A DNA stretch of 38,246 nucleotides. Source: a bacterium. Its GTDB lineage: Bacteria; B130-G9. Where the stretch lies: the NCBI GenBank assembly GCA_035527515.1, contig DATLAJ010000085.1, positions 1 to 38,246 on the forward strand, given 5' to 3'. The translations under genes and the position numbers were made by a program. Under the pieces are notes generated by a model. The model saw nothing but the letters and a program-made list of their open reading frames with translations, had not been told where the DNA came from and searched no databases. Shown here piece after piece: positions 12,387 through 35,837 of the stretch; within the stretch, counting starts at the first letter, position 1; every line of letters starts with the position of its first letter.

Positions 12387-12389
12387 ATT

Positions 12390-13499
12390 TTGTCCACTCC
12401 AAAGGACGAAAAGACTGAGGAAGCAACTCCTAGGCGTCTGAAAAAGGCGAAGGAGAAGGGTCAGGTTGCGAGGAGCAAAGAGCTTGCCTCTGCTCTCGTT
12501 CTCGGCGGTGCGCTCATGTATTTCTGGGCGATGGGCAGCAGCTTTCTCTCAGTGGTTTTGGGGAATATCAAGTCCGGCCTTCTGTCGGCGGCAACGCCGG
12601 GCGAGTTCACGCTCTCGACCATGCAGTTGCTCTCAAGAGGTGTGGTCTTGGCATTCGCCAAAGCCGTTCTGCCCTTCATGTTCTGCATTGTTGTAATCGT
12701 GACGCTTGCGAATCTCGCTCAGGGCGGGTTCATCTTGACCACTAAGCCCCTCGAGCCAAAGCTCACGAGGCTTAACCCGATAAGCGGCCTGAAGAGGGTG
12801 TTTGGCTCCATAAAAGCGCTCGCCGAAACAGCCACGAGCTCGCTGAAAATCATCATCGTAGCGCTGATCGGCTACATAACAATCAAGCCAGAGCTCTCCA
12901 GAATCCCTGGCGTCTTTAACCAGTCCGTGCCGGGCATAGTCATCTACTTCGGCCAGCTTGCATTCACGCTTCTGTTTCGCATCTTCATATTCCTGATGAT
13001 CCTCGCTATCTTCGACTTCTTCTACCGCAAGCACGAACACAAGAAAAGCCTCAAGATGACAAAGAAAGAGGTCAAGGATGAGTTCAAGGAGACCGAAGGC
13101 GACCCGCTGATCAAGAGGCGCATCAGGCAGAAGCAATACGAGATGGCGCGACGCCGAATGATTAGCGATGTGCCCAAGGCGGACGTTGTGATTACTAACC
13201 CAACGAGGATCGCGGTCGCGCTCAGCTACGTGGGGGCGGGCGTGCCGGCGCCGGTTCTGGTCGCCAAGGGTGCAGGCGCTATTGCGAGAAGGATTATATC
13301 AATTGCGGCGGAGCATGACGTCCCGGTCGTGGAGAATAAGCCTTTGGCACAGGTCCTGTTCAATAGTGTCGAGATTGGCGAGGTCATCCCTGAATCTCTT
13401 TACAAGGCTGTCGCAGAGGTGCTTGCTTACGTTTATAGGCTGAAAAACAGGACCAAAGAAGCGCTCGGCGGAGCACAGGCCGCTGCACGCGCCTCATAA
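12390..13499 (+). CDS. flhB: flagellar export switch protein FlhB, NPTR variant
   Basis: A 369-residue protein. FlhB switches flagellar export from rod/hook to filament substrates. The N-terminus EKTEEATPRRLKKAKEKGQV is characteristic, four membrane helices follow, and a cytoplasmic domain begins near residue 215. In most FlhB proteins the cytoplasmic domain cleaves itself at N-P within NPTH. Here N270-P271-T272 are kept, but the fourth residue is arginine (AGG codon, 13206-13208). The rest is orthodox (PKADVVITNPTRIAVALSY, VAKGAGAIARRI, EIGEVIPESLYKAVAEVLAYVY). It starts with TTG three bases after the fliR stop, behind a G-rich ribosome site. Confidence 0.95.
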   Translation: MSTPKDEKTEEATPRRLKKAKEKGQVARSKELASALVLGGALMYFWAMGSSFLSVVLGNIKSGLLSAATPGEFTLSTMQLLSRGVVLAFAKAVLPFMFCIVVIVTLANLAQGGFILTTKPLEPKLTRLNPISGLKRVFGSIKALAETATSSLKIIIVALIGYITIKPELSRIPGVFNQSVPGIVIYFGQLAFTLLFRIFIFLMILAIFDFFYRKHEHKKSLKMTKKEVKDEFKETEGDPLIKRRIRQKQYEMARRRMISDVPKADVVITNPTRIAVALSYVGAGVPAPVLVAKGAGAIARRIISIAAEHDVPVVENKPLAQVLFNSVEIGEVIPESLYKAVAEVLAYVYRLKNRTKEALGGAQAAARAS

Positions 13500-13542
13500 A
13501 CGGCGTGAGACGAGGAGTTCAGATTAGGAGCAAAAGGGCGTC

Positions 13543-15624: not shown

Positions 15625-15636
15625 GGGAGCAAGAAC

Positions 15637-16866
15637 TTGCGCGTCAGGCGATATGAGGCAGAGAACATGGCCACCGCACTCAGGAACATCCGTGAGGACC
15701 TCGGGCCAAACGCCTTCGTTCTCTCGACCCGGCGCATCAAGAAAAAGGACAAGTTCGGGCAATTGAGGACGCTTATCGAGGTGAGCGCAGCCTCCGACGT
15801 TGTCGAGGTTAAGGCTACGAAGCCCAACATGGAGCCGGCTGCATCGGACCGCAAGGGTGATATGATCGCCTCGCTACAGAGTCAGGTCGATCAGCTGAAG
15901 ACCGAGCTTATCTCTTTCAGGACGAAGCAGCCGAACGGGTCTCTCGAGTCGATGAGAGAGGATCTATCGGAGATGAGAGATCTGGTTGAGTTGGCAACGG
16001 ACCAGTGGGCCGATGAGACTGTCAAGAATTACGGCCCCATCCTTAGCGCGCTCTTTCGCCGGCTGACGCGTTCCGATATTGACCGCAGGTTGGCCGCACA
16101 AGTGATAGCGATCGCATCAAGGGAGCTCGCCAACTGCTCGGCAATTGGCGAGAAAGAATCGCTGAAGGTTCTCTTCGATGTAATGAAGCGCCAGATGTTG
16201 ACATCGGGGCCGATCGAGCTGATGGAATCAGGACCAAAAACCGTCTTGCTAGTCGGCCCAACTGGAGTCGGTAAGACAACCACGCTCGCCAAGATCGCCG
16301 CCCGGTACTCGATGTTTGAGAAGAAGAAGGTCGGCCTGTTGACCATAGACACCTTCAGAATCGGGGCAGTCGAGCAGCTGAGGACCTATGCGAACATCCT
16401 CGAGCTGCCGCTCAAAGTTGCCAACACGCCGGAGCAGATGCAGAAGTTCATAGGGGAATACAGGGACATGGACCTCGTGCTCGTTGACACTGGCGGCAGG
16501 AGCCAGAAGGACAGGGTCAAGATGGCAGAGCTGGTAAACTTCGTCGGCGGCCGAGACGATATATATTGTGAGTTGCATCTTCTTTTGAGCTGCGCCACGA
16601 AGAATCGTGATTTGGTAGAGATAACCCGAGAGTTTGGGAAGCTTGCGATCGATTACGTGCTGTTTACCAAGCTCGATGAGTGCAACACCTTCGGTGGGAT
16701 ATTCAACGAGGTCTTGTGGACGCACAAGCCCGTGAGCTACCTCACGACGGGGCAGAATGTCCCTGACGATATTGAGGTGGCCGATGCGGGTCGAACAGTG
16801 GAGTTGGTCTTGATGAACAGCCTCACCAAGAGGCAGACCCGCTCCGTACGCAAGGGCAACGGATGA
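15637..16866 (+). CDS. flhF: flagellar biosynthesis GTPase FlhF
   Basis: A 409-residue SRP-type GTPase that recruits the first basal-body parts and sets where flagella form. The N-terminal B domain (MRVRRYEAENMATALRNIRE, LGPNAFVLSTRRIKKK) is followed by the N and G domains. P-loop GPTGVGKT is at residues 207-214; later motifs are LLTIDTFRIGAVEQLRTYA, DTGGRSQKD (the usual DTAGR motif, with glycine for alanine) and FTKLDE. The TTG at 15637 is 12 bases after flhA. Its stop overlaps the start of flhG (ATGATGA), indicating coupled translation of this partner pair. Confidence 0.96.
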   Translation: MRVRRYEAENMATALRNIREDLGPNAFVLSTRRIKKKDKFGQLRTLIEVSAASDVVEVKATKPNMEPAASDRKGDMIASLQSQVDQLKTELISFRTKQPNGSLESMREDLSEMRDLVELATDQWADETVKNYGPILSALFRRLTRSDIDRRLAAQVIAIASRELANCSAIGEKESLKVLFDVMKRQMLTSGPIELMESGPKTVLLVGPTGVGKTTTLAKIAARYSMFEKKKVGLLTIDTFRIGAVEQLRTYANILELPLKVANTPEQMQKFIGEYRDMDLVLVDTGGRSQKDRVKMAELVNFVGGRDDIYCELHLLLSCATKNRDLVEITREFGKLAIDYVLFTKLDECNTFGGIFNEVLWTHKPVSYLTTGQNVPDDIEVADAGRTVELVLMNSLTKRQTRSVRKGNG

Positions 16867-17801
16867 TGAGCGATCAGGCCTTGAGATTGCGGCAGATGGT
16901 GGCCCACGAACGCCGCAAGTCTGCGCTTGACAGTGGCTCCGAACTTGGGCCCCTTGCCAAGCTGGCTCTGCAAGAGAGCTCGCGTCGTGCCAGAGCAAGA
17001 GTGGTGGCAATAACGAGCGGAAAGGGCGGGGTTGGCAAGACTGTCATTACAGCGAATCTTGCCCTGTCATTCGCTATGGATGGCAAGCGAGTGATGCTGC
17101 TCGACGCGGACTTTGGGTTGGCGAACCTCGACGTTGTTCTGGGGGTTCGCGCCGAGCAAGACATTCGGGACGTGGTTTCGGGCAAGTCGAGCATTGCAGA
17201 TGTGATTGTTGAGGGCCCGGAGGGGCTGAGGCTGATCCCGGCCGGCTCTGGAATACGCTCCCTGGCGAACCTCACTCAGTCTCAAGTAACAAGCCTTCTA
17301 GACGAGGTTTTAGGCTATGACGAGCACGCTGATATGTTCTTCATCGACACGGCGGCCGGCATTGCAGCCGGGGTCGCCGGCATCCTCCTGTCGGCGGACG
17401 AGATTATCATTGTGGCCCAGCCCGAACCGACCGCGGTCCTTGACGCATACGCAGTCATAAAGACGCTCGTCGCCGACCGACCTGATGCGGATATATATAT
17501 TGTAGCCAACTGTGTCGCCTCTGACCAGCAAGGCTTGACGGTTTTCAACAACCTTCAGAACGTTTCGGAGAGATTCTTGAGCAAGAATCTGATTTACGCC
17601 GGCTCGATTCCGCTCGATGCGCGACTCAAGGACGCTGTCAAGATGCGCAGGCCCAGTCTGACTGAGTTTCCCAACTCTCCTTTCAGCATCGCGATACGAA
17701 AGTTGGCCAGGACACTCGATCGAGTGGATAATGGAGACAATCGGCTCAGTGGCGGTATCTCGGGCTTCTTCAGCCGCATGATCGGCACAGGCGCATCGTG
17801 A
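16863..17801 (+). CDS. flhG: flagellar number regulator FlhG (MinD-like ATPase)
   Basis: A 312-residue MinD/ParA-type ATPase, also called FleN or YlxH, that limits flagellar number and acts on FlhF. The N-terminus SDQALRLRQM fits the DQAxxLR helix by which FlhG stimulates FlhF GTPase activity. The deviant Walker A motif SGKGGVGKT spans residues 52-60, with signature lysine K54. DADFGLANLDVVLGV and the switch-like FFIDTAAGIA follow. The C-terminal part (residues 285-312) carries hydrophobic-basic sequence that could be a membrane-targeting helix. The gene overlaps flhF upstream and the next small membrane protein gene downstream (GTGA). Confidence 0.95.
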   Translation: MMSDQALRLRQMVAHERRKSALDSGSELGPLAKLALQESSRRARARVVAITSGKGGVGKTVITANLALSFAMDGKRVMLLDADFGLANLDVVLGVRAEQDIRDVVSGKSSIADVIVEGPEGLRLIPAGSGIRSLANLTQSQVTSLLDEVLGYDEHADMFFIDTAAGIAAGVAGILLSADEIIIVAQPEPTAVLDAYAVIKTLVADRPDADIYIVANCVASDQQGLTVFNNLQNVSERFLSKNLIYAGSIPLDARLKDAVKMRRPSLTEFPNSPFSIAIRKLARTLDRVDNGDNRLSGGISGFFSRMIGTGAS

Positions 17802-18178
17802 AAGATTCTCAGGTCAACGGCCCCGTAACTGGCTCCGAGAAGCGCGCAGTGAAGCCGGATGCAAAGGGACCGGTTAAGCTGGCTCAGGGCAAGATGGGTG
17901 CGCTTCTTTCGGCTGTCGCCGGGGCCATCGTGCTGGCGTTCTCAGTATCACAGCAAATGGACCTCATTGATACTGTGCGCTCTTTGGCAACGTCAGTGCT
18001 CGTCTTCTGGTTTCTGGGATGGTCCTGCGCTTTTGCCATAAACTGGCATCTTCGGACCGCCCACAAGCGGCAATTGGTCAATGAGCGTGAGAAAGAGGCC
18101 GAAGAGAAGAAGGCCGGGGACAAACAGGCCGCATCGCCCAATACGACTGTTGACCAGAACCAAGCCTCTCCTGCATAG
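17798..18178 (+). CDS. small membrane protein in the flagellar operon
   Basis: A 126-residue protein not recognised as a named family. It has a basic, polar N-terminus, two hydrophobic segments (about residues 34-50 and 61-82), and a charged C-terminus with a KRQLVNEREKEAEEKKAG helix likely to form a short coiled coil. The GTG start overlaps the flhG stop, so it is translated with the flagellar proteins. A sigma factor gene often occupies this position in other bacteria. Its place between flhG and fliM suggests a role in flagellar assembly or placement, but this is only inferred from position. Confidence 0.75.
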   Translation: MKDSQVNGPVTGSEKRAVKPDAKGPVKLAQGKMGALLSAVAGAIVLAFSVSQQMDLIDTVRSLATSVLVFWFLGWSCAFAINWHLRTAHKRQLVNEREKEAEEKKAGDKQAASPNTTVDQNQASPA

Positions 18179-18220
18179 TATTGGGTGGTGCAAGAGCAAG
18201 GAACATAGGGACACGCGATC

Positions 18221-19282
18221 ATGCCTCGGTTACTGTCGCAAGAAGAGATAGACGCGCTGCTAACGCAGATGCCGGAAGAGTCTGAAAGGGCACCCGGCGG
18301 CCCGAAGGGCGCAGCGATGATGCTGGGCAAGAAGGCCCAGCTTTACGATTTCAAACGCCCTGACCGCCTGTCTAAGGACAACATCCGCTCCCTGCACCTC
18401 ATACACGACAGGTTTGCAAGGAGCTGTTCGGCATCATTCTCTGCGTATCTCAGGACGATGTCAGACGTCAATCTGCTCTCCGTTGACCAGTTCACTTATT
18501 TCGAGTTCTTAATGTCCCTGCCCGACCCAACTTGCCTCAATATACTGAGCATGCGGCCTCTTGAGGGCAATGCGGCGCTGGAGATCAACCCCTCGGTCGT
18601 ATTCCCCGTTATTGACAAGCTTTTAGGTGGGCCAGGGCAGCCGCTGGCCGAGGTCCGTGAGATCACGGACATCGAGTTCGGTATAATAGAGGGAATGATT
18701 AAGCAGTCACTCAAAGACCTCCAGGACGCCTGGTCGCAGGCCATGAACATTGAGATAGCAATTGTCGAGAGAGAGACGACTCCGCAGTTGATGCAGATAG
18801 CGGCTCCGAACGAACCAGTTGTGCTTGTAACATTCGAGATCAAAATAGCCGAACTTTCGGGAATGATGAACCTGTGCATACCGTCGAGAATGCTCGAACC
18901 TGTCATGAATCGATTCACTCAGGATTGGTATTCTGTCTCCGTTTCAAGCCGGCCGGAGAAGGTTGGCCTCTGGATCAACGAGTTGCTGAACGAGGTCCCG
19001 CTGCCGGTCTCCGTGTTCTTGGGCGAGAGCAGGCTCGCGGTTCAAGACATAGTCGATCTTGAGAAGGGCGATGTTGTGGTCCTTGAGGGCCGCACAAGCA
19101 CCCCATTAACTGTTCGTGTTGGCGGCGTGCCGAAGTTCCGCGCCTCGATAGGGGAACACGACCGTAGAGCAGCGATCAAGGTTCTCTCCAGGATTGAGAG
19201 GCCAATCTCGCCGCTCGGTCAATCTGTAGAAGCGAAGCAACCAGACGGCGCAGCAGGCCAGCAGCCTGAGTCGGAGAAGTAA
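18221..19282 (+). CDS. fliM: flagellar motor switch protein FliM
   Basis: A 353-residue C-ring protein that binds phosphorylated CheY and sets rotation direction. The N-terminus LLSQEEIDALL is the classical CheY-binding peptide. After a linker, YDFKRPDRLSKDNIRSLHLI leads into the middle CheC-like domain, with DPTCLNILSMRPLEGNAAL and VIDKLLGGPG. The C-terminal SpoA/FliN-like domain is about residues 255-325 (LPVSVFLGESRLAVQDIVDL). It starts 42 bases after the small membrane protein gene. The presence of an intact EIDALL motif implies a chemotaxis input although no che gene is in the window. Confidence 0.96.
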   Translation: MPRLLSQEEIDALLTQMPEESERAPGGPKGAAMMLGKKAQLYDFKRPDRLSKDNIRSLHLIHDRFARSCSASFSAYLRTMSDVNLLSVDQFTYFEFLMSLPDPTCLNILSMRPLEGNAALEINPSVVFPVIDKLLGGPGQPLAEVREITDIEFGIIEGMIKQSLKDLQDAWSQAMNIEIAIVERETTPQLMQIAAPNEPVVLVTFEIKIAELSGMMNLCIPSRMLEPVMNRFTQDWYSVSVSSRPEKVGLWINELLNEVPLPVSVFLGESRLAVQDIVDLEKGDVVVLEGRTSTPLTVRVGGVPKFRASIGEHDRRAAIKVLSRIERPISPLGQSVEAKQPDGAAGQQPESEK

Positions 19283-25525: not shown

Positions 25526-26473
25526 ATGAGCAAGAAGGACGCCGCTCGTTGTTCGATCATCATCACTAACTACAACGGCAAGCATCTCCTAAAGGAATGC
25601 CTTCCGTCTGTGCTAGCGGCCGTAAAGCGCCGCGGCGGACTGGACGAGGTGATCCTGGTCGATGATCGCTCAACCGACGGCAGCTCGCGATTCGTGGCAG
25701 AGCACTTCCCCTCAGTGAGAATACAGGCCAATCTGGCCAACGTAGGGTTTCAGAGAGCCTCGAACATCGGTGCGATGATAGCTCACTTCCCAATCATCGT
25801 CCTTCTGAACAACGACGTCGCGGTCGAGCCAGACTCGATCACGAGGCTCTGCCACTGCTTCGAGCGTTACGACAATCTTTTCGCAGCGTCGGCGAAGCTC
25901 TTTGGCTGGGACAGGCGTTCATTCCTTGCGGGCCGGCGTGTGGCGAAGTTTGAACAGGGGCATTTCCGCATCCAGGACGTCAACGGGGACGAGAGCCGCC
26001 AGAGGTTGACACTGTTTGCGACTGGAGGCGCGGCGGCGTTCGACAGGGAGAAGTTTCTCGAGCTTGGGGGCTTCGACCCGATATATTACCCGCTCTACTG
26101 GGAGGACATTGACATCTGTTACAGGGCGCACAAGAGAGGATGGCCCGTGGTCTATGCGCCCGATGCGGTCATGTATCACAAGCACCGGGCCACTATTACC
26201 AAGACGACTGACCGCAAGAGGATACGACTCATCACGGCGCGTAACAGCTACATCTTCTTCTACAAGAACATTCTCGACAAAAGGATGCTAAGGCAGCACT
26301 TTCTGTGGACTCTCTGGTTCTTTGTGAGGGACACGCTTAACGGGAAGTTCAGGTTCCAAAGGGCTTTTTTGATGATGATTCCAAAGCTCCTCAAGACCCT
26401 CAAGAGAAGAAGAGCAGACAGGCTCGCACAACTGCTTGCCGACAGGCTCGTCATCGAAAGGGTCCTCGACTAG
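25526..26473 (+). CDS. family 2 glycosyltransferase
   Basis: A 315-residue GT-A fold glycosyltransferase. It begins CSIIITNYNGKHLLKECLPS, has EVILVDDRSTDGS, then IIVLLNNDVAVEPDSI with the donor/metal motif, GGFDPIYYPLYWEDIDICYR with the ED acid motif, and KRGWPVVYAPDAVMYHKHR. This is the rhamnosyltransferase-like GT2 pattern used in surface polysaccharide synthesis. The ATG at 25526 lacks a strong ribosome site but places the fold at the expected N-terminus. Upstream is the RDD protein; downstream after 127 bases is exbD. Sugar and acceptor are unknown. Confidence 0.88.
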   Translation: MSKKDAARCSIIITNYNGKHLLKECLPSVLAAVKRRGGLDEVILVDDRSTDGSSRFVAEHFPSVRIQANLANVGFQRASNIGAMIAHFPIIVLLNNDVAVEPDSITRLCHCFERYDNLFAASAKLFGWDRRSFLAGRRVAKFEQGHFRIQDVNGDESRQRLTLFATGGAAAFDREKFLELGGFDPIYYPLYWEDIDICYRAHKRGWPVVYAPDAVMYHKHRATITKTTDRKRIRLITARNSYIFFYKNILDKRMLRQHFLWTLWFFVRDTLNGKFRFQRAFLMMIPKLLKTLKRRRADRLAQLLADRLVIERVLD

Positions 26474-26600: not shown

Positions 26601-27014
26601 TTGGACTTTGGCGCGAAGGGGCCGTCGAGCCCTGAGATCAACCTGACGCAGCTCATCGACGTTGTCCTGCTGCTGCTGATTTTTTTCATGATCTCCACCA
26701 GCTTCGTCTCACAGCCCGGCATCAACATAAAGCTGCCTCAGTCGAGGACCTCAGAGACCACCCCGGGCAACATGACGCGGGTGACGCTCACGGCGACCGG
26801 ACTGATTTTCGTTGGCGACCGGAAGCTCAACTGGGAGGGTCTGGCGCCGGCGCTGACCGCGGAGCGGAAGCGCAATGAACATAATCTTCTTGTCATAAAG
26901 GCGGACCAAAGCGTAAAGCACGGGGCAGTAGTTCGGGTGATGGATGTGGCCAAAGAGGTTGGATTCGACCGTATAGCCATCGCCACAAGGCCCTACTCTT
27001 CCCAGCCCAAGTGA
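26601..27014 (+). CDS. ExbD/TolR family biopolymer transport protein
   Basis: A 137-residue protein of normal ExbD/TolR length with one N-terminal membrane helix (about residues 18-36, LIDVVLLLLIFFMISTSFV). D20 in LID is the essential proton-path aspartate of the family. A periplasmic domain follows, ending with VMDVAKEVGFDRIAIATRP. With an ExbB/TolQ partner such proteins use the proton gradient to drive outer-membrane transport or envelope work. No partner is in the window. The TTG at 26601 has AGGAGG 9 bases upstream, so the start is well supported. It follows a glycosyltransferase gene after 127 bases and precedes a 525-base gap. Confidence 0.9.
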   Translation: MDFGAKGPSSPEINLTQLIDVVLLLLIFFMISTSFVSQPGINIKLPQSRTSETTPGNMTRVTLTATGLIFVGDRKLNWEGLAPALTAERKRNEHNLLVIKADQSVKHGAVVRVMDVAKEVGFDRIAIATRPYSSQPK

Positions 27015-27241
27015 GGCCGACATGCTCGCGGGCTTTGACCCGGTCTTCGCCGGGCGCTCTTCTGACCAGCTTTGCTCAGCTTGACCCTAACGCACCGGCC
27101 TTGCCCTTTGTAGGCTCCCCGGTAAAGCAGCCACGCTAACCGCATAGGGGAAGATTACCTCGTGAGTCTTCGTGTATATCACCCTCGGTTTGACCCTATA
27201 GTTGGTTGATTGCTCCTGTGAATAACGATGTCTAGGGTGAA

Positions 27242-27259
27242 TGGTCAAGAATTGACCCA
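27242..27259. repeat. dyad repeat D1
   Basis: TGGTCAAGAATTGACCCA: imperfect palindrome TGGTCAA / TTGACCCA. One of five related dyads in the window with the pattern TGGRTCA-N4-TGAYCCA. Confidence 0.55.
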
Positions 27260-27278: not shown

Positions 27279-27297
27279 TGGGTCAAACATTGATCCA
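27279..27297. repeat. dyad repeat D2
   Basis: TGGGTCAAACATTGATCCA, with arms TGGGTCAA and TTGATCCA pairing except for one G/T. Belongs to the TGGRTCA dyad family. Confidence 0.55.
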
Positions 27298-27361
27298 CGC
27301 CGCAAGACCGACGTCCAGAGCATCAATCTAGGACCATTGCGGACTGAATCGGGGCGAGAGA

Positions 27362-27379
27362 TGGATCAGAATTGATCCA
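27362..27379. repeat. dyad repeat D3, overlapping a promoter
   Basis: TGGATCAGAATTGATCCA: perfect 7-base arms TGGATCA / TGATCCA around GAAT. Its right half contains the candidate -35 hexamer TTGATC (27372-27377). Confidence 0.65.
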
Positions 27380-27399
27380 CCTTGCGGAGATGTTAGAAT
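27372..27399 (+). promoter_or_regulatory. candidate promoter for the first propeller gene
   Basis: TTGATC (27372-27377, four of six) lies 16 bases before TAGAAT (27394-27399, five of six to TATAAT), about 140 bases upstream of the ATG at 27540. The D3 dyad covers the -35 hexamer and could be an operator. Confidence 0.4.
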
Positions 27400-27539
27400 A
27401 GTCTGATGCTGATGGGTGATTCTTCAAGAAGCTCTTCAGACCGTTGAGTAGGTAAGATGATGCAAGGAACTTTACTGGATTGGCACGTATTGTGCTTAGT
27501 ATATTAGCGAGATTGTATAGCGAATTGGAAAGGCGTGAA

Positions 27540-29822
27540 ATGTTCGACAGGATTCTGCAAATAGTGCTGACAGCGTTGGTTGCGTTGGGGCCATCTTGCG
27601 CTTGGTCGCAGGAGCTGCCAGTTGCCACGGTGCCATGGGCCCAGTTTGGGCAGGGTCCAGATAGGACCTTTTGCAGTCCATACGCGGGCCCATTGAACAA
27701 AGCGCACGAGCACATGCCTCTATTCCCTTTCAGCGACGAGGCGCTCACACTGATGTTGCTTGGTCGAGACGGTGTGCTCCAGACGGTATCGGAGGACGGC
27801 TGCCTCTACGGGTTTAGCGCTAAGTATCGTGCGGGTGACCTGGTCACCCGCATTCAGCTACCTTGGGTGCCGACGGACATGGCGATTGGTTATGATGGCA
27901 CGATATATATCTCGACAACGGATGATGGATACGCCCGGCTGGCAGCGTTAAAGAGCGATACAGCGCCCTGGGAGAAGAGCTTCCGCACTCAGGGCGAGAT
28001 ATACGTGGTGCCTCTGGAACTCAAGGTAGTCGTTCTCTTGTCAGACGGTCGGCTGTTCTGTCTCACGACTGATGGCGAAGAGGAGTGGAACTATACCGTG
28101 CCGGGCATTTTCGATCGGTGCACAATGCCGTCGATAGCGCGTTCTGGGATCATATACTTCTCGACTAACGGGGTAACCTTGCGATCACGGGGCTCCTTGA
28201 AAGATAGCTGTTTGTATGCTGTATCACGAGACGGGGTGCTCCTTTGGGACCTACCCGCTCCCGTTGAGAGCCTGAGCTATCCAGTTATCGACGAGAGCGA
28301 GAACGTTTACCTGATAGGTTCCGATGGCCTTCTGTATTCGTTCTGCTCATCCGGGCTTAATTGGGCTGAACCGGCGGCCAAGCCCGAGCAGGATGCATAT
28401 CTAGCCTATTATCCTGACATGATTGTAGTCCTTTCAAATGGAAGCGTTACAGCGTTTAGCAAGACTGGGCAACGTCAACCCCTCTGGTCAGTCTCCTTAG
28501 GAGACCCCTTCATCTCGGCCCCTGTGATTGGGAGCGATGGTATGACCTACGCACTCACGCGGCCCATCCTTCAGGAAGGCTTGCCTACCCTCACCGCGAT
28601 CGGGGCAGATGGCAACATCAGGTGGTCTGCCCCGGTCAACCATGACACGCAGACCCCGCCCATCATAACAATAGAAGGCGACCTCTGCTTGGGGACGTCA
28701 GAGGGGGTCCCAGTCTACTTCGGGTTCGGCAGGGGAGACATCACTCCGCCTCACCTTGCGGAGACGTTTCCGCCAAAGGACTCGATCGTGCCCCTCAAAG
28801 ATTTCAGCGTGATGATAGCGCTCATCGATGAGGGCGTCGGAATCATCAAGTCAAGCATATACGTCTCGGTCAACGATGAATTCGTTCACACCACCGCAGA
28901 CGATGTCGCAGGAGGCTACCAACTCTCCGCCTCACCACGTCAAATCCTCGCGCCGTTCCAGGATGTAACGATCGAGGTCTCTGCGGAGGACAAGAGGTTC
29001 AACAGCAAGATCGAGCCTTACCACCTCACAGCCGTTGACTATCGGAAGCGACCCACGATTCTCATGGCCGGCTTCGGATACAGCAGCGTCACTTCATCCC
29101 AAGGCGGTAAGTTCCGGACAGTGGCGCTCATGGACCCCTTAACAGATATCAAGAACGTGGTGGTGTATCACACGCCCTCAGGCTTCTCTGAAACGCTCCG
29201 GGACACTGGAGTTGACTTTGATCTGAAAGGCAGATGGTATTTGGCGGACTACACAGTTTCAGCCGGCCTTGCGCCAGGTAACTACAAGCTTGGGATAGTC
29301 GGAGAAGATACCACCGGCAAAACCGGCGGCATCTGGCCATATCTGACAGTAGAAAGAGGAGATGAAGCAGCCAAGCGCGGCCTCGTGCGGGGCACGGGAA
29401 CACCGCTTGAGCTGCCTGCCGGCACGTTCGCGATGAGGCCAGTCTCGTCCCCACCAACCCGGCCATACAAATCGGCAAGTATGCGCAACGGGACCCCCCC
29501 GTTCATACTCGCCGCCGGCTACACATATTCTTACATGACAACCTCAGGGGGCGTCGTCAGGATCGAGGCGCTAGTGGACGATCTGGATGGCGTTGATGAC
29601 GTTGAGACGGTCGAGGTATATGTTGACGGCTACCCGACGGGACTGCGTCTGCGCAATGACGGCATGGACGGAGACGGAGCGCCCGAAGATAACGTCTTTA
29701 CCTATCAGATATTCCTTGGCAGCGAGGTTTTCGCCACTGGCAGATACCTTTATGAGCTCAAGGCCTTTGATCGGGCAGGAAACGAAAGCAATATGTGGCC
29801 ATATCTGGAGATCAAAGAATGA
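27540..29822 (+). CDS. secreted PQQ-like beta-propeller protein
   Basis: A 760-residue protein with a signal peptide (MFDRILQIVLTALVALGPSC, then AWSQ as probable cleavage site). Residues about 25-410 hold repeated blades resembling PQQ/quinoprotein-like propellers (GYDGTIYISTTDDGYARLAA, LLSDGRLFCLTTDGEEEWNY, then ENVYLIGSDGLLYSF). After residue 410 come beta-rich Ig-like segments, one reading PPHLAETFPPKDSIVPLK and the last ending DRAGNESNMWPYLEI. It is probably an extracellular or periplasmic adhesive or sensing protein, with no enzyme motif. ATG 27540 has GGAAAGG 7-9 bases upstream; an in-frame start at 27480 is less likely. Its stop overlaps a tiny downstream ORF. No sorting tail was recognised. 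Confidence 0.8.
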   Translation: MFDRILQIVLTALVALGPSCAWSQELPVATVPWAQFGQGPDRTFCSPYAGPLNKAHEHMPLFPFSDEALTLMLLGRDGVLQTVSEDGCLYGFSAKYRAGDLVTRIQLPWVPTDMAIGYDGTIYISTTDDGYARLAALKSDTAPWEKSFRTQGEIYVVPLELKVVVLLSDGRLFCLTTDGEEEWNYTVPGIFDRCTMPSIARSGIIYFSTNGVTLRSRGSLKDSCLYAVSRDGVLLWDLPAPVESLSYPVIDESENVYLIGSDGLLYSFCSSGLNWAEPAAKPEQDAYLAYYPDMIVVLSNGSVTAFSKTGQRQPLWSVSLGDPFISAPVIGSDGMTYALTRPILQEGLPTLTAIGADGNIRWSAPVNHDTQTPPIITIEGDLCLGTSEGVPVYFGFGRGDITPPHLAETFPPKDSIVPLKDFSVMIALIDEGVGIIKSSIYVSVNDEFVHTTADDVAGGYQLSASPRQILAPFQDVTIEVSAEDKRFNSKIEPYHLTAVDYRKRPTILMAGFGYSSVTSSQGGKFRTVALMDPLTDIKNVVVYHTPSGFSETLRDTGVDFDLKGRWYLADYTVSAGLAPGNYKLGIVGEDTTGKTGGIWPYLTVERGDEAAKRGLVRGTGTPLELPAGTFAMRPVSSPPTRPYKSASMRNGTPPFILAAGYTYSYMTTSGGVVRIEALVDDLDGVDDVETVEVYVDGYPTGLRLRNDGMDGDGAPEDNVFTYQIFLGSEVFATGRYLYELKAFDRAGNESNMWPYLEIKE

Positions 29823-29902
29823 CGCTCGAACTTGGCGAGAACCCCTCGAGCTCTATCGAACTGAATCTTGGAGATGAGCAGCGATGGAACTGGAGCTCGT
29901 AG
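29819..29902 (+). CDS. possible 27-residue ORF
   Basis: A short frame, MTLELGENPSSSIELNLGDE then QRWNWSS, whose ATG overlaps the stop of the propeller gene by four bases (ATGA). It could be made by translational coupling and closes within the start of the next small gene. No hydrophobic segment or family resemblance. It may be a chance frame. Confidence 0.3.
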   Translation: MTLELGENPSSSIELNLGDEQRWNWSS

Positions 29903-30012
29903 GATACCTCTTTCTGGTTGTGGCTCTCCTGAGCTTGATTTGCCTCACGCTCACCGGGGTCTTTAACCAAGATGGGGTGGATGAGCATTCCAAGCTCGAC
30001 AGGAGGAATTAA
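29884..30012 (+). CDS. 42-residue single-span membrane protein
   Basis: A tiny protein, MELELVGYLFLVVALLSLIC followed by LTLTGVFNQDGVDEHSKLDRRN. Residues 5-25 form one hydrophobic helix, followed by a hydrophilic tail that is basic at the end, so it is probably an inner-membrane protein. GGAGATGAG lies upstream of the ATG, and the stop is two bases before the next small ORF's start. It is shorter than usual gene-finding cutoffs. No family was recognised. Its tight spacing with the next ORF, also single-span, supports a real pair made together. Confidence 0.6.
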   Translation: MELELVGYLFLVVALLSLICLTLTGVFNQDGVDEHSKLDRRN

Positions 30013-30014
30013 GG

Positions 30015-30161
30015 ATGAACAGCAAGAAAGGTCTGCTCGAGCTCCAAGGGCGCGGCGACAGAATGGAGAGCCCGCTGGCTGCGTTCGCTGTTCCTTTCAT
30101 CCTAGCGCTCGCAGTCGCGCTCTTCTTTGTGGCAGCAGAGATATTCAAACGTTTCCTCTGA
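30015..30161 (+). CDS. 48-residue single-span membrane protein
   Basis: A tiny protein. It begins with a basic stretch (MNSKKGLLELQGRGDRM), followed by one hydrophobic helix (PLAAFAVPFILALAVALFFV, about residues 20-39) and a short basic end (EIFKRFL). The ribosome site AGGAGG (30001-30006) lies eight bases before the ATG, the best evidence in this gap that it is translated. It starts two bases after the previous small ORF. No named family was recognised. The pair lies between two large secreted propeller genes. It could act as a membrane partner for these proteins, but this is only inferred from position. Confidence 0.65.
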   Translation: MNSKKGLLELQGRGDRMESPLAAFAVPFILALAVALFFVAAEIFKRFL

Positions 30162-30495
30162 TGACGAAATTGACAGCTTTGGCAGCTGTTAAACCCATGT
30201 ATGGGGTGAGGTCACGATTTTACCAACTGGGCCGGGTGGAGGCGCCTCACCCCATCATTCTACCCTGTCCCAGAATAATGGTGAAACCAGCCCGTGGCAA
30301 CATAACGCCCTTTCTCTGCACGGCAGGGGCACGCAGTCGGCAGCATTTTGTCAGATGCGGGCAGCGCCAGGTGGCCGAGGCATTCATTAAGACGGTCTTC
30401 TGGCCAGTATTGATCTGCATAGCCCATTGTGTTAGTCTCGCATAGGTCTGGGTTGATGTTTTCTATTTAACTTATGTTCGTGAGGAGGATTTGCG
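30162..30495. other. 334-base intergenic region with an 11-base inverted repeat
   Basis: ATGGGGTGAGG (30201-30211) is exactly complementary to CCTCACCCCAT (30245-30255), with a 33-base loop. No T-run follows. An open frame through here (to 30445) has no family-like sequence. No convincing promoter for the next gene was found. Confidence 0.5.
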
Positions 30496-33075
30496 GTGGG
30501 GAAATTGATGAGGCTCGTGGTTTTGTCAGTCGCTTTCGTGTGTTTCGGATCGTTTGCGACAGCAACAGCAGAGTGGTTCAACTACTCCAGCCCTGTGGCT
30601 GCCAGCGACTTTGCGTTCACTGGTGGACACGTGTGGATTCCTGCCCTGGGAGGCGTTGTTGACCTGAACCCTCAGACAGGTGATTTCACGGTCTATACCA
30701 GCTCGACAGGGCTTCCATGCTCTTGTGGGAACGGAGCAGCAGTTGATCAGGAGGGCGTGGTCTGGGTTGCCATGACCAAGGGGGTTGCGGCGATCCACCC
30801 CGACGGGACTATTGACAGATTCTATGCCGAGAACTCCGCGCTGGAGTCGGACTACGCTAGGGCGATTGCAGTTGGCGAGGACGGCCTTGTCTGGGTCGGA
30901 ACGGACGAGGGCGTTTACTCTTATGACGGCTCCGTCTGGGCCAAGCATCCATTCATGGGAATACCTTATCTCATCATCAACAACGTTATCAAAGTCGGCT
31001 CTGGAGGAACCGTTTGGATCGGGACAGAGGGCGGACTGCGCGTGTTCGACGGAACCAATTGGACGGACTACACTGAAATGTCGAGTGGCCTTCCCTCCGG
31101 AGGAGGCGGCAACGTTCGTGACATAGATTTTGCGCCCGATGGCAGGACATGGCTGGCGACCTATGGCGGAGTTGTCTCGTTTGACGGCGTCGTTTGGGAG
31201 GTATTCGATAGCAGCAACACGCCGATGACCACCAATATAGTAGAGGCGATCGCGGCCGCGCCCGATGGGACAATTTACGCCGGCTGCCCGAATGGTGTTT
31301 TTGTTTATGACGGTTCCGAGTGGGTTGTTTGGGACACGAGCAACTCCGGTATCCCAACTAACAACATCACGGCGCTGGACATCGCGCCGGACGAGGCGCT
31401 CTGGGTTGGGACATTTGCCGGGTCCGCTGCATTCAAGGATGATGTCTGGACTGGCTACAGTCACACCAACTATCCCGAGCTGAAGGGTCTGGTCCAGCGG
31501 CTCGCCGAAGATGCTGATGGGGTCATTTGGCTGGGGACGATGGGTGGTGGACTCTTTGCCAAGGACGGCGACAGCTTTACGGTTTATAGCGTTGCGAACA
31601 GCGGTCTGCTCTCGGACATGGTTTCGGCGATCAGCATCGCAACTGACAACACGTTGTGGCTCGCCACCCCAGGAGGCGTGAGCCACTTCGACAGGACCGA
31701 TTTTGAGAACTACTCGTTCTCTCTTGGCAACTTCCCCGCATCAGGCTCGGTAGTCGATATCTGCGTTGGCCCGGACGGGACGCCTTGGGCAGTTGTAGGG
31801 GGAGGCCTGATGGGCCCGCTCGGGAGGACGTCGCAGACCCCGGGCCAGGTCTGCTATTTCATCAATGGCGAATGGCAGACACTCCAGATGATGGCGCTTG
31901 CCGAGTTCTCCTGCATCACAGCGAGGGAGAACGGCGACATCTATATCGGCTCGAACGGCCAGGGCCTGTTCATCTGGAACCACGGGTCCGTCAAGCATAT
32001 CGATACCAGCCAGGGGCTGCCGAGCAACACTGTGTTATGCCTCGCGCGAGGCGCGGACGACAACGTCTGGGTCGGCACGGACAGCGGAGTCGGCATCACT
32101 GACGGCGTCCTGTGGCAAGTATATGGCATCCATAACACAATGCTCTTCTCGAACGAGATCAGGGATATATTCCCGGCCGAGGACGGAGCGGTATGGATTG
32201 CGTCATCTAACGGGCTTGTGTCGATCAATACCAACACCTCGGTCAGGTACTCCTCGCAATACAGCGGGCTTTTGATTGACAACACTAGTTCGGTTCTGAA
32301 GGCCTCAAACGGCGATATAGTCGTAGGGTCTATGGTGGGCCTTACGGAGCTGACCACCCCAAGCTTCCCGATATTGACGGACGGCTCAGTCGGACCGGAC
32401 ACTGGCACCCCAACAACCCCCTTCACTTACTCCGTCCACTACACAAACGCCGAGGCGTCACTCCCGCCGGCCATCTCGGTAGGGATTGACCTCAGCGAGT
32501 ATGAGCTACAACTGGCAGATGGCGAGCCCGACAATGGGACTTACAGCTTCAGCACTGTCCTCGATTTTGGCCTGCACGGCTACTACTTCCTGGCCACAGA
32601 TGAGAATGGAGCACGGACACGCATGCCCTTCGACTTCATTCTGTCCGGCCCGATAGTTACCGGCAAGCCAGCCGAGGTTATTATTCGGCCTGACAAAGTC
32701 ATCTACGTGCCTGGGGACCGCATGCAGGTTCTCCTGACGCTTTTCAACAGGGTAACGGACCCCCTGGAAATAACGCTCTATACAGCGCTCAAAATGCCGA
32801 GCGAGCAATTGATCTTCTTTGTGTATCCAGACCTGTTCACAATGAACACCACCGGACTGACACTTATTCTCTCGCCGCTCCAACTAATCCAGGACTTCCC
32901 AATACTGGACATTGTCTTGGACGAGGCAACCTTGCCTTACGGCGAGTACGCCTGGCTGGCCGCGTGCCAGGACCCCAATGCTCCTGGTTTCGAGCTATTG
33001 AGCGACGTCTCGGAAGCTACTTGGCAATTCATGGAGAGCCAGCCGGTTTCGACTAACCGTAATACAAGTGAATAG
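30496..33075 (+). CDS. secreted two-component-regulator-propeller type protein
   Basis: An 859-residue exported protein with a signal peptide (LMRLVVLSVAFVCFGSFATA). It contains about 13 repeats of the Reg_prop type (WVGTDEGVYSYDG, WIGTEGGLRVFDG, WLATYGGVVSFDG, WLGTMGGGLFAKDG and similar) spanning residues 45 to about 620, enough for two seven-bladed propellers. These blades usually form the periplasmic sensor of hybrid histidine kinases, but here no kinase or membrane helix follows. The C-terminal 240 residues are beta-rich, with a cluster of hydrophobic strands. GTG at 30496 has GAGGAGG seven bases upstream. A role in ligand binding or surface attachment is inferred. Confidence 0.82.
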   Translation: MGKLMRLVVLSVAFVCFGSFATATAEWFNYSSPVAASDFAFTGGHVWIPALGGVVDLNPQTGDFTVYTSSTGLPCSCGNGAAVDQEGVVWVAMTKGVAAIHPDGTIDRFYAENSALESDYARAIAVGEDGLVWVGTDEGVYSYDGSVWAKHPFMGIPYLIINNVIKVGSGGTVWIGTEGGLRVFDGTNWTDYTEMSSGLPSGGGGNVRDIDFAPDGRTWLATYGGVVSFDGVVWEVFDSSNTPMTTNIVEAIAAAPDGTIYAGCPNGVFVYDGSEWVVWDTSNSGIPTNNITALDIAPDEALWVGTFAGSAAFKDDVWTGYSHTNYPELKGLVQRLAEDADGVIWLGTMGGGLFAKDGDSFTVYSVANSGLLSDMVSAISIATDNTLWLATPGGVSHFDRTDFENYSFSLGNFPASGSVVDICVGPDGTPWAVVGGGLMGPLGRTSQTPGQVCYFINGEWQTLQMMALAEFSCITARENGDIYIGSNGQGLFIWNHGSVKHIDTSQGLPSNTVLCLARGADDNVWVGTDSGVGITDGVLWQVYGIHNTMLFSNEIRDIFPAEDGAVWIASSNGLVSINTNTSVRYSSQYSGLLIDNTSSVLKASNGDIVVGSMVGLTELTTPSFPILTDGSVGPDTGTPTTPFTYSVHYTNAEASLPPAISVGIDLSEYELQLADGEPDNGTYSFSTVLDFGLHGYYFLATDENGARTRMPFDFILSGPIVTGKPAEVIIRPDKVIYVPGDRMQVLLTLFNRVTDPLEITLYTALKMPSEQLIFFVYPDLFTMNTTGLTLILSPLQLIQDFPILDIVLDEATLPYGEYAWLAACQDPNAPGFELLSDVSEATWQFMESQPVSTNRNTSE

Positions 33076-33234
33076 ATAGACCCGGTCCAACTTTCCGAGA
33101 ACTGGCCGGTGGCTCATTCCCCTGGGCTGCCGGCCCATTGCCCTTCTGGCCATTATCTCACTCCCCTCTTACGCCACGGAATGCATATCAAGGGCCCTGG
33201 GAAGGAGGCTGTCCAATAAGCCTGTTTTGCCTGT

Positions 33235-33308
33235 GTAGTGGCGATTCACGAATCGCCCTGGTTTGATCCGATCGGGCGCCTCAAGGGCGGTTCGTGAACC
33301 GCCCCTAC
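33235..33308. repeat. inverted pair of REP-like hairpin repeats
   Basis: Two 25-base copies in opposite orientation (33235-33259 and 33284-33308), 24 bases apart. Each is a hairpin: GGCGATTC-AC-GAATCGCC in the first and GGGCGGTTC-GT-GAACCGCCC in the second. Read in the same sense they differ at three positions, two of which form a stem pair (A-T in one, G-C in the other). Confidence 0.7.
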
Positions 33309-33399
33309 ACGACGTCGATGTCCTTTTACAGGCACATTGAGCCGCCAGGCCCGGCTGAGCGCGGCGCCCCTACGGCGCCCGGCCTATGAGACAGCCCGG

Positions 33400-33417
33400 T
33401 GGGTCAATAATCGACCC
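33400..33417. repeat. dyad repeat D4
   Basis: TGGGTCAATAATCGACCC, with GGGTC / GACCC arms. Member of the TGGRTCA dyad family also found upstream of the first propeller gene. Confidence 0.5.
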
Positions 33418-33467
33418 GTTCTAAACTAGCCCTATTTAGTCTATCTCCCGGGGTAACACAGCCGCAG

Positions 33468-33487
33468 GTGGATCGATTCTGATCCAC
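33468..33487. repeat. dyad repeat D5
   Basis: GTGGATCGATTCTGATCCAC: 7-base arms GTGGATC / GATCCAC. Its reverse complement core matches D3 (27362-27379) at 17 of 18 positions. Confidence 0.6.
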
Positions 33488-33838
33488 TTCGGGCCGGAGA
33501 TTCCACCGAACCGCTTATGTTAAGAGCAGGCCGATTGGCCGGGATATGCTTCCTAGAGCGGAGCGAGATGCCTGTGAACGATATTGTCAGCGATATGGCA
33601 CGGACACTGCTAAGTACACCAGTGGACAACTTAACCTTATTTTCTATGTCCGGGCGCCTCGTCAGGCCGAAAGAAAATGGGAATGCTGCCGCGTGCCTCG
33701 TAATCCTGGCCGTCTGAGGCGCCCTGTCTGGTAAGATGAGGATTAACAGTCTTCGAGTTCCCGGCGAGCTGCTCGTGCCCGTTCAGCGATGGCGGGCGCT
33801 CCAGCCCCCGAGCGCCAGGGGAAGGGCAAGTCGCCTGC

Positions 33839-33886
33839 AAAAAAAGAAACAGCCGAGAAGCCGCCTTTTAAGCTGCTCCCCGGCTG
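33839..33886 (-). terminator. intrinsic terminator of the pseudopilin gene
   Basis: On the minus strand CAGCCGGGGAGC (33886-33875) pairs with GCTTCTCGGCTG (33861-33850) as a 12-base stem with two G-T pairs, a 13-base loop, then TTTCTTTTTTT (33849-33839). It begins 40 bases after the stop of the minus-strand pseudopilin gene. The pattern is a textbook rho-independent terminator. Confidence 0.88.
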
Positions 33887-33926: not shown

Positions 33927-35837
33927 TTAACCGCCGCCCAGCAGAGTGAACTCCAAGGAGATAGTCGAGATACCATTCTTGACACAGACTCGCTCGCCGT
34001 AAATCTGGGTCTGAGTTACGCCGGTCCACGCGACCTCTTCCCAACCGAGCCGCTGCTGCAAAGCCATGCAGTACCCGGTGTCCTGACTTCCGATGTCGCG
34101 ATGATGCACGACCTTGATGTAGAAGAACGCGTAACCCACAGGGATAAACTGATTGGTCTCAATCTGTGTGAACGAGTCCTTGTAGATGTGCTGGTTGGTC
34201 GGAGACATTATCGGGATTGGGAAGCCACTGCTCATCAGCTCTACGACATTGAAGCCGGGCGCCTCTTTGGGGTCGGGGTATATGACCGCGATCCCGGAAA
34301 CATAGTCTTGGACGCTTGGGAGCGTCTTGGTGTTGTATGCCATTTCAATGTCAACTGGCGTATTGATGGTACTGGGCTCATCCATCGCCTCGATGATCAC
34401 GTTCGGGGCTATGTTGGCCCACAAGTCGCGCTTATACAGGGGGACGAACACATCATCATCGTCCTGGCCTTCAGAGGAGATCGTCCCGCTGGGGTTGCCA
34501 CCCCTCATGAGGTTGGGGTCCAGCAGCATCCCTGTCATCCTGTCGAATATCCGGTTGGAGCCCGGGGACGCGATAAGCCCGGCCAAAGAGGCGTAGTTGT
34601 CCAGGTCCTCATCTCTATTGCCGAACCCGAGGTCCAGAACGGCGCCTGCGTAGGCATCGCCCTCGTTGTGGATGGCGAGCGGAGCCTTCCATCCGTCGAG
34701 GAAACAATCGTATGTCATGACCATGTCATCGTCTTCGTTTACGTAGGAGTTGCCAAAGTCCGAGGTCATATAGGGACCTCGCCAGCCCATCCAGGAATAG
34801 CCAAGGTCGTTTCCCTTTTGGACGTTGAACCTCGAAGAATCGCCCATCCTGTAAGGCGGCGGAACGTCCCGTGGCGCGCCATAGGAAAGGTCCTTCGATC
34901 CCGGATCGACAAATCGCATGATCAGCAGTTGCAGGGGGTTGTCAAAATCTCTGAAATCGTCAAGGTTGAGCGGAACAGCGGGCTTGACGGTCTCCGCGGC
35001 GCCCTTTGGTAATGCCAATCCGAGGTCCGCTGCGAAGCCCGCGATGCAGCCTCCGCCCTCGAGGTCCTCGGGCGAGCCGCAGATAGCCGTCCTGACCTCC
35101 TCGAAGCGTTTCTTGGTTTCCTCCGCCTTTGTCCGGTCGATGCTTGCGCAGCTAATGACCTTGATGACGTTATCCTTGAGGATGTGCTCATATTTGCCGC
35201 CAAAGAGCTCGCTGTATGGGATGAACATGCAGAGCTCCCGCCACGTAAGCATCCCCAGAGTCGGCCCGCCCGAATAGGACCCTGAGGCATCCCTGAAGCC
35301 CCAGCCCGGCGTCTTGCCCATGCTGGCAAGCAGAGCGGCGTTTGCCGGCAAGCCCTCCGCCCCTGCGTATTGCTGGCCGTCAGCCGACTCGGCTCGCGAC
35401 CGCCCATACTGAGGCTGATAATAGATCGCCCTGCCCCAAGCATCCTTCTTGTAGTCATCCTTGTGGAACGATGCGGTCAAATAGGGCCCATTCCAGCCAT
35501 AGCGCCTGACGGTGTCCTTTATACTCGTGCCCTTTTCCGGATAGGGGTTGTAAACCAGAAAGTCGATGCTGCTCCAGCTCTTGTCGTTAACCAGCTGTTT
35601 CCCATCGGCCGTAAGGTCGTTGACAGATGGATACTCACCCACATCCTCATAATAATTGTTGAGAGCTATCTCGAGGTTGTCCATCTTCTCCATTGTGGCC
35701 ACACGATCGTTTAGGTCCAACGTCGTAACGATTGACGGTATAGCAACGGCCGCAAGCGTCGCGATGATCGCGATCACAATGACCACCTCAATCAGGGTCA
35801 TACCTCTGCAAGCCATTAGTACCGATCTTCGCTTCAT
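33927..35837 (-). CDS. large tandem-module prepilin-like (GspG-type) protein
   Basis: A 636-residue pseudopilin-like protein. MKRRSVLMACRG precedes MTLIEVVIVIAIIATLAAVA: a class III prepilin leader with G12 before the cut, M13 at +1 and the E17 at +5. Module 1 (residues 13-140) has the GspG core LEIALNNYYEDVGEYPS then WNGPYLTASF and KDAWGRAIYY. Module 2 (about 242-390) has a second core, KKRFEEVRTAICGSPEDLEG then WRGPYMTSDF and DCFLDGWKAPLAI, with no helix of its own. Residues 390-636 are beta-rich and unassigned. Ordinary GspG is about 140 residues. GGAGGT lies 9 bases before ATG 35837. It has its own promoter and terminator, without other secretion genes nearby. Confidence 0.85.
   Translation of the reverse strand: MKRRSVLMACRGMTLIEVVIVIAIIATLAAVAIPSIVTTLDLNDRVATMEKMDNLEIALNNYYEDVGEYPSVNDLTADGKQLVNDKSWSSIDFLVYNPYPEKGTSIKDTVRRYGWNGPYLTASFHKDDYKKDAWGRAIYYQPQYGRSRAESADGQQYAGAEGLPANAALLASMGKTPGWGFRDASGSYSGGPTLGMLTWRELCMFIPYSELFGGKYEHILKDNVIKVISCASIDRTKAEETKKRFEEVRTAICGSPEDLEGGGCIAGFAADLGLALPKGAAETVKPAVPLNLDDFRDFDNPLQLLIMRFVDPGSKDLSYGAPRDVPPPYRMGDSSRFNVQKGNDLGYSWMGWRGPYMTSDFGNSYVNEDDDMVMTYDCFLDGWKAPLAIHNEGDAYAGAVLDLGFGNRDEDLDNYASLAGLIASPGSNRIFDRMTGMLLDPNLMRGGNPSGTISSEGQDDDDVFVPLYKRDLWANIAPNVIIEAMDEPSTINTPVDIEMAYNTKTLPSVQDYVSGIAVIYPDPKEAPGFNVVELMSSGFPIPIMSPTNQHIYKDSFTQIETNQFIPVGYAFFYIKVVHHRDIGSQDTGYCMALQQRLGWEEVAWTGVTQTQIYGERVCVKNGISTISLEFTLLGGG

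Follow-up and report, generated by a model that had tools for sequence, protein, structure and literature searches.

A predicted sigma-54 regulon of secreted proteins and a structured RNA, marked by dyads at fixed spacing, in an uncultured bacterial group

A single enhancer-binding protein, acting together with sigma-54, probably switches on a programme of exported proteins in this bacterial group, of which we know no cultured member. The programme would include the propeller gene prop1, two tiny membrane-protein genes directly behind it (tiny1 and tiny2) and a gene for a structured RNA, with the neighbouring propeller gene prop2 outside the regulon. The window, i.e. the whole stretch of 38,246 nucleotides analysed, is the entire contig C85 of a 3.47 Mb genome in 183 contigs (G000), and the genes, the sites, their fixed spacing, their conservation and the RNA can all be read from its letters and those of its relatives. 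Among 60 genomes searched, three were members of the same family (G001 of the same genus, G002 and G003), and the counts of dyads, promoters and RNA copies cover these four family genomes, in which contig ends truncate several loci; G001 is 83% complete. When 84,980 genomes of named species were scanned, a set that may omit the window's own genome, two records matched, Candidatus Coatesbacteria bacterium B130_G9 and bacterium AUK292, presumably corresponding to G001/G002.

The prop1 operon and the RNA gene each lie behind a set of dyads and a candidate promoter, with dyad centres given relative to the sigma-54 element:

27241 to 27259, unstranded: most distal dyad before prop1, ATGGTCAAGAATTGACCCA, centre -230
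27279 to 27297, unstranded: distal dyad, B type, TGGGTCAAACATTGATCCA, centre -192 (G001 -192, G002 -190)
27361 to 27380, unstranded: proximal dyad, A type, TGGATCAGAATTGATCCA within 27362-27379, centre -110 (G001 -110, G002 -109)
27481 to 27496, plus strand: predicted sigma-54 promoter of the prop1 operon, TGGCACGTATTGTGCT, a GG-N10-GC element with 1 mismatch to TGGCACGNNNNTTGCW
33400 to 33418, unstranded: distal dyad of the RNA promoter, centre -186
33468 to 33487, unstranded: proximal dyad of the RNA promoter, centre -118 (same RNA in G003 -120, in G002 -118)
33596 to 33611, plus strand: predicted sigma-54 promoter of the RNA, TGGCACGGACACTGCT

The sigma-54 -24/-12 consensus is TGGCACGNNNNTTGCW, and a promoter element was defined as GG-N10-GC with at most three mismatches to it. 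Inspection of all 22 dyad loci in the four genomes revealed such an element at 20, the exceptions being G000:C62 and G003:C251. The spacing was constant at all 20, with the near dyad centred at -106 to -120 and the far dyad at -174 to -202. Since 101 elements occur in the 337,302 bases of these loci (both strands), fewer than 0.01 would be expected per locus in that interval. The 20 promoters share the consensus TGGCACg-n-A-t-n-c-TGCT, and a scan of the window at no more than one mismatch returned two elements only, both of them behind dyads. The architecture is moreover kept for each gene, at about -230/-191/-110 for prop1 and about -187/-119 for the RNA, in three genomes each; the third dyad before prop1 recurs at -226 to -230, with 3 mismatches in G001 and 2 in G002.

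The patterns were also counted against chance. TGGGTCAATNATTGACCCA at up to three mismatches matched the window three times against 0.01 expected, and GTGGATCANNNTTGATCCAC was found at two places (four strand matches) against 0.12. Over G000 to G003, the B-type pattern GGRTCAANNNTTGAYCC at up to one mismatch gave 5, 1, 5 and 15 sites as compared with 0, 0, 1 and 1 for the reversed pattern, i.e. 26 sites versus 2, which make up the 22 loci. Exact A-type dyads, TGGRTCANNNNTGAYCCA, numbered 2, 1, 0 and 6 with none in the reversed control, and all nine fall within the 20 promoter-bearing loci. The looser GGRTCANNNNTGAYCC at one mismatch was noisy (28, 16, 21 and 31 matches against 9, 7, 5 and 9 in the control). 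As palindromes in intergenic DNA on both sides of the gene set, a feature already picked out in the preliminary description and confirmed here (27241, 27279 and 27361 before prop1; 33400 and 33468 after prop2), the dyads could be taken for mobile or REP-like repeats, or for terminators, with no part in activation. Their fixed place relative to GG-N10-GC at 20 of 22 loci, kept gene by gene across genera, and the few copies per genome make this highly improbable, and it was rejected on the fixed spacing. The dyads instead fit enhancer sites of predicted sigma-54 promoters better than generic repeats, and what looks like repeats flanking genes may thus be readable as activator sites once the spacing to a promoter has been checked.

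The products behind the 20 promoters are consistent with a regulon devoted to exported proteins: 16 are proteins with a signal-like N-terminus (judged by hydropathy rather than by a signal-peptide program), three are copies of the structured RNA and one is a protein without a signal. The prop1 operon stands behind the promoter in G000, G001 and G002. Pfam matches over the cut-off to right-handed beta-helix or related families were obtained for G003:C67, C331 and C339 and for G002:C94, while the Beta_helix match of the G000:C34 product was under the cut-off; the products of G003:C47, which has no Pfam match, and C415 are beta-helix-like by eye. The product at G002:C63 is a subtilase, and at G003:C210 a 59-aa membrane protein (L133 5590-5769) directly behind the regulon promoter precedes a subtilase-like protein that by eye resembles the G002:C63 product. 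G003:C326 and G002:C224 encode secreted proteins that appear propeller-like by eye, and further signal-like products are found at G003:C37 and at G003:C162 (36 residues before the contig end). The protein without a signal, at G003:C348, has 379 residues and TPR matches under the cut-offs. At G003:C210, G003:C415 and G002:C63, the secreted ORF begins 203-435 nt after the promoter. Elsewhere in the window, flagellar genes identified by Pfam occupy 11604-19282 on the plus strand (FliR-type at 11604, FlhA-type at 13543, FliM at 18221); no sigma-54 element at up to one mismatch precedes them within the window. Upstream of the prop1 control region, also on the plus strand, lie a family 2 glycosyltransferase gene (25526-26473) and a gene for an ExbD/TolR-type protein (26601-27014).

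The operon in the window comprises the following features:

27540 to 29822, plus strand: prop1, ATG at 27540 and stop at 29822, a secreted PQQ-type propeller protein of 760 aa
29884 to 30012, plus strand: tiny1, a 42-aa single-pass membrane protein, after prop1 also in G001 and G002
30015 to 30161, plus strand: tiny2, preceded by AGGAGG, for a 48-aa single-pass membrane protein whose N-terminal tail is charged
30199 to 30258, plus strand: conserved 3' hairpin directly after tiny2, core GGGCCRGGYGGWGGCGC

The prop1 product matches Pfam PQQ_2 at 33.9 bits (cut-off 27.6) and consists of a signal-like start, a propeller at about residues 110-400 and a C-terminal region resembling a beta-sandwich; the N-termini of prop1 and prop2 each contain a hydrophobic, signal-like segment. 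The propeller has the fold of YxaL, BamB and other PQQ-type propellers. It differs from proteins of the YxaL/BamB type in its extra C-terminal region, of a kind present in many other proteins of G000, and many of the 45 matches of prop1 in its own genome (E ≤0.001) are to such shared C-terminal domains only. Propellers of the prop1 and prop2 kinds are frequent in G000. The BamB model TIGR03300 (cut-off 285.2) gave no match for prop1 of G000 and 34.6 bits for the G002 orthologue. The AlphaFold2 model, built on a 3-sequence alignment, was poor (mean pLDDT 43.8). Full-length orthologues of prop1 were found in G001 (82%) and G002 (46%), and the match in G003 covers the C-terminal domain only.

In both genomes with a full-length orthologue, tiny1 and tiny2 follow prop1 in the same order and with the membrane segment kept, so that the prop1-tiny1-tiny2 unit is common to G000, G001 and G002. 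Each tiny protein contains a single segment of strong hydrophobicity, with a 19-residue mean hydropathy of 2.7-2.8, and comparison of G000 with G001 gave dN of 0.11 and 0.12 and dS of 0.24 and 0.57 for tiny1 and tiny2, values that are rough for such short sequences. Matches to tiny2 at E 1.1e-17 (G001) and 1.2e-7 (G002) both adjoin prop1; those in eight further genomes of the 60 searched, at E 0.19-0.72, were taken as chance. These data support tiny1 and tiny2 as genuine genes. The original picture of two secreted propeller proteins with two tiny membrane proteins between them thus holds, given the Pfam matches and the conservation in G001 and G002; of the three very short ORFs proposed there, two are supported as genes, and the third found no support when conserved ORFs between the propellers were sought by eye.

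Judging solely from position and hydrophobicity, tiny1 and tiny2 may be membrane partners of prop1 that aid its export or its retention at the membrane. Small single-pass proteins often regulate larger membrane complexes, and it is a serious, if minority, possibility that this pair acts independently of prop1 in the inner membrane; it might, for example, regulate a transporter or a protease, or consist of membrane-active peptides under the control of the 3' hairpin. The hairpin is indeed conserved in all three genomes that have tiny2; against independent action, the tiny proteins are found only beside prop1, in a search made with tiny2. The 17-nt hairpin core GGGCCRGGYGGWGGCGC occurs as one exact copy in each of G000, G001 and G002, always after tiny2 and within a stem of some 12 base pairs, and no exact copy was found in G003. 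By eye there is no U-run after it, and it is therefore not a standard intrinsic terminator; comparison with Rfam gave chance-level matches only. A copy with one mismatch lies on G002:C101, before a putative seryl-tRNA synthetase gene and without tiny genes. Within 18 regulon loci, tiny membrane ORFs were seen in the three prop1 operons and at G003:C210, with one more inside a long ORF of G003:C67, and such proteins are consequently not general to the regulon.

Downstream of the operon, the second propeller gene has a candidate promoter of a different type:

30410 to 30438, plus strand: possible sigma-70-type promoter of prop2, TTGATC-17-TAGTCT, by eye, with the same elements at the G001 contig end
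30496 to 33075, plus strand: prop2, GTG at 30496 after GGAGG and stop at 33075, a secreted double Reg_prop propeller protein of 859 aa

The preliminary description suggested that both propellers and the tiny proteins might form an envelope module. As one sensing or adhesion complex anchored by the tiny proteins, such a module would fit the common orientation of the propellers in the window, an order that may be kept in G001. Synteny speaks against it. The G002 prop1-tiny1-tiny2 unit lies on a 7.1-kb contig and is followed by a gene for a secreted repeat protein, with prop2 on a different contig and flanked there by glycosyltransferase-like and acyltransferase-like ORFs. G003 carries a prop2 orthologue without a full-length prop1 and without a tiny2 match, and the full set expected to co-occur in relatives thus splits. 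G001 contains weaker prop2 paralogues only, and its contig ends inside the prop2 leader, where prop2 would begin. In addition, the window scan at up to one mismatch found no sigma-54 element before prop2, and 335 bases, including the conserved hairpin, separate it from tiny2. The two-propeller module was consequently rejected on synteny, and a single complex is very unlikely; what stands of the proposed module is the conserved unit of prop1 with its two tiny proteins, from which prop2, apart in G002 and G003, drops out. It is likely that prop2 is transcribed separately, outside the predicted sigma-54 regulon.

The prop2 product matches Pfam Reg_prop at 96.7 bits and has 98 matches in its own genome at E ≤0.001, many to shared C-terminal domains only; its orthologues in G003 (59% identity) and G002 (49%) both lie away from prop1. 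It shares a double Reg_prop propeller with the sensor domains of HTCS proteins (BT4663, BT3049, BT4673), with profile matches to 3v9f (1.8e-37) and 4a2l (1.6e-34). Its AlphaFold2 model (3-sequence alignment) was better than that of prop1 (mean pLDDT 65.7), and the best Foldseek matches were BT4663 domains, with PorZ 5m11 giving the highest TM among these (0.43/0.48). Unlike HTCS proteins, prop2 and its two orthologues contain no Pfam histidine kinase or regulator domains; relative to PorZ of type IX secretion, NF052228 scored 75.1 bits, under the cut-off of 260. A Reg_prop sensor standing without its kinase, as the preliminary description had proposed, was also recovered in the five own-genome Reg_prop paralogues scanned (four whole, one cut), none of which has a kinase domain, and the kinase-free form appears to be common in this group. 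Between prop2 and the RNA promoter, positions 33233-33310 form a near-perfect inverted repeat with 27-nt arms that are 89% complementary, of the form GTGTAGnGGCG...CGCCCCTACAC, which looks like a mobile intergenic repeat.

The second promoter in the window would drive an RNA gene:

33622 to 33840, plus strand: predicted small RNA, both ends approximate and inferred, the start from the -12 element
33652 to 33724, plus strand: conserved structured core of the RNA, covariance model of three sequences

The conserved stretch reaches about 33775. The core is present as one copy each in G000, G003 (C288) and G002 (C191), each behind its own dyad pair, and the covariance model recovers these, its own three source sequences, at E 1.0e-14, 3.5e-17 and 4.4e-11, respectively. 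With stricter filters no further match was found in the 60 genomes, and none in the 83% complete G001. Comparison with 4227 Rfam families gave no match at gathering level, and a chance-level match elsewhere in the stretch only. Predicted folding energies were -48 to -58 kcal/mol for 126-154 nt, without a shuffle control, and covariation among the three sequences, with one pair changed on both sides, was no better than in shuffles. The neighbours of the RNA differ in the three genomes, indicating that it is conserved on its own. The core could alternatively be a cis element, a leader or 3' element, of a transcript running towards the convergent pseudopilin gene, the next gene being on the other strand (33927-35837). 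The cores in G002 and G003 have their own dyad pair and promoter and different neighbours, and no conserved ORF follows there within 492 and 586 bases after the promoter, where the contigs end, which makes a cis element improbable beside a free-standing small RNA. The product of the convergent gene itself (minus strand) has a type IV pilin/GspG-like N-terminus and, at 636 aa, greatly exceeds the usual pseudopilin in length.

As for what the RNA might act upon, a regulator pairing with the regulon leaders was considered and rejected, as 16 leaders behaved much like random stretches (mean percentile 0.53). Positions 30328-30347, between tiny2 and prop2, are complementary to 16 nt of the RNA core with a 4-nt bulge, and this pairing of -34.6 kcal/mol is the best on the plus strand of the window. 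Other places reach -33.0 and -32.2 kcal/mol, however, and the pairing is thus not distinctive.

Candidate activators are present in all four genomes, where the enhancer-binding-protein domain PF00158 gave 10, 7, 7 and 9 matches above 200 bits in G000 to G003. A GAFTGA-type motif was found in 14 of the 21 loci examined in the four genomes. On G002:C63 and G003:C210 an activator gene shares the contig with a regulon member, which is no proof of identity. The PrsR model TIGR02915 gave 301-436 bits, under its cut-off of 502.6, for six activators, namely five of the ten strong ones of G000 (two of them cut) and one of G002. Several enhancer-binding proteins are encoded in ORFs that, at 1745-1841 residues, are several times as long as usual:

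G000:C58, G000:C81, G001:C89, G002:C86, G003:C43, G003:C210 and G003:C234: long enhancer-binding-protein ORFs

In the model that we infer for enhancer binding and transcription, an enhancer-binding protein, activated by some signal, would bind the dyads at about -110 and -190, often with a third site further out, and would loop to the sigma-54 polymerase to activate the GG-N10-GC promoters. The regulon would then consist of secreted propellers, beta-helix and subtilase-like proteins together with one structured small RNA. In the window, this switch would drive the prop1-tiny1-tiny2 operon and the RNA gene downstream of prop2; prop1 would be exported, tiny1 and tiny2, translated from the prop1 message, would sit in the inner membrane, and prop2, a secreted double propeller of the HTCS/PorZ-like type, would have a promoter of its own that is not of the sigma-54 kind. 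A bolder version, which we regard as somewhat unlikely in its entirety, is a group-specific programme under one activator, which would induce a whole set of secreted beta-propeller and beta-helix proteins together; the new RNA would tune these or their export, and a dedicated microprotein pair would dock or export one propeller. If true, this would be a surface coat under regulation, with an RNA and microproteins as accessories of its own. At the least, the sites, promoter, operon and RNA gene, which could be cloned into a heterologous sigma-54 host, offer a testable control circuit for surface proteins.

The layout of this regulon is known in kind. Small RNAs behind sigma-54 promoters with enhancer sites include Qrr, GlmY/GlmZ and CrcZ, which the RNA in the window resembles in its predicted promoter type, differing in having no Rfam family match. 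A search of a limited literature collection on the letters of the site and on Coatesbacteria returned nothing on such a regulon. The sigma-54 survey of Francke et al. 2011 (PMC3162934) describes control of the bacterial exterior, including exopolysaccharide, flagella, lipids and lipoproteins, a view also expressed in PMC4641369 and PMC9850573; the link to the surface is alike here, with secreted propeller and beta-helix proteins of an uncultured group as the products. The closest precedent appears to be the sigma-54 PEP-CTERM box with its PrsR-PrsK regulon (Haft et al. 2006, PMC1569441), which controls a secreted family mostly in single transcription units with long upstream regions, a common and sometimes repeated activator site preceding a -24/-12 sigma-54 element. 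The two are alike in their secreted products and in an activator site upstream of the sigma-54 element, and differ in the site itself, PEP-CTERM motif 1 ending in TTTACA about 63 nt before motif 2, as compared with TGGRTCA...TGAYCCA dyads, two per promoter, here. No PEP-CTERM tag was evident by eye in the last 35 residues of the dyad-regulon products, many of which are cut by contig ends, and the tag model TIGR02595 had no match in prop1 of G000 and G002. The dyad regulon also includes a structured RNA, unlike that of the PEP-CTERM box. Site, spacing, products and RNA thus set it apart from these precedents, and it may represent a second case, built independently of the PEP-CTERM box, of a sigma-54 regulon for secreted proteins, RNA included.
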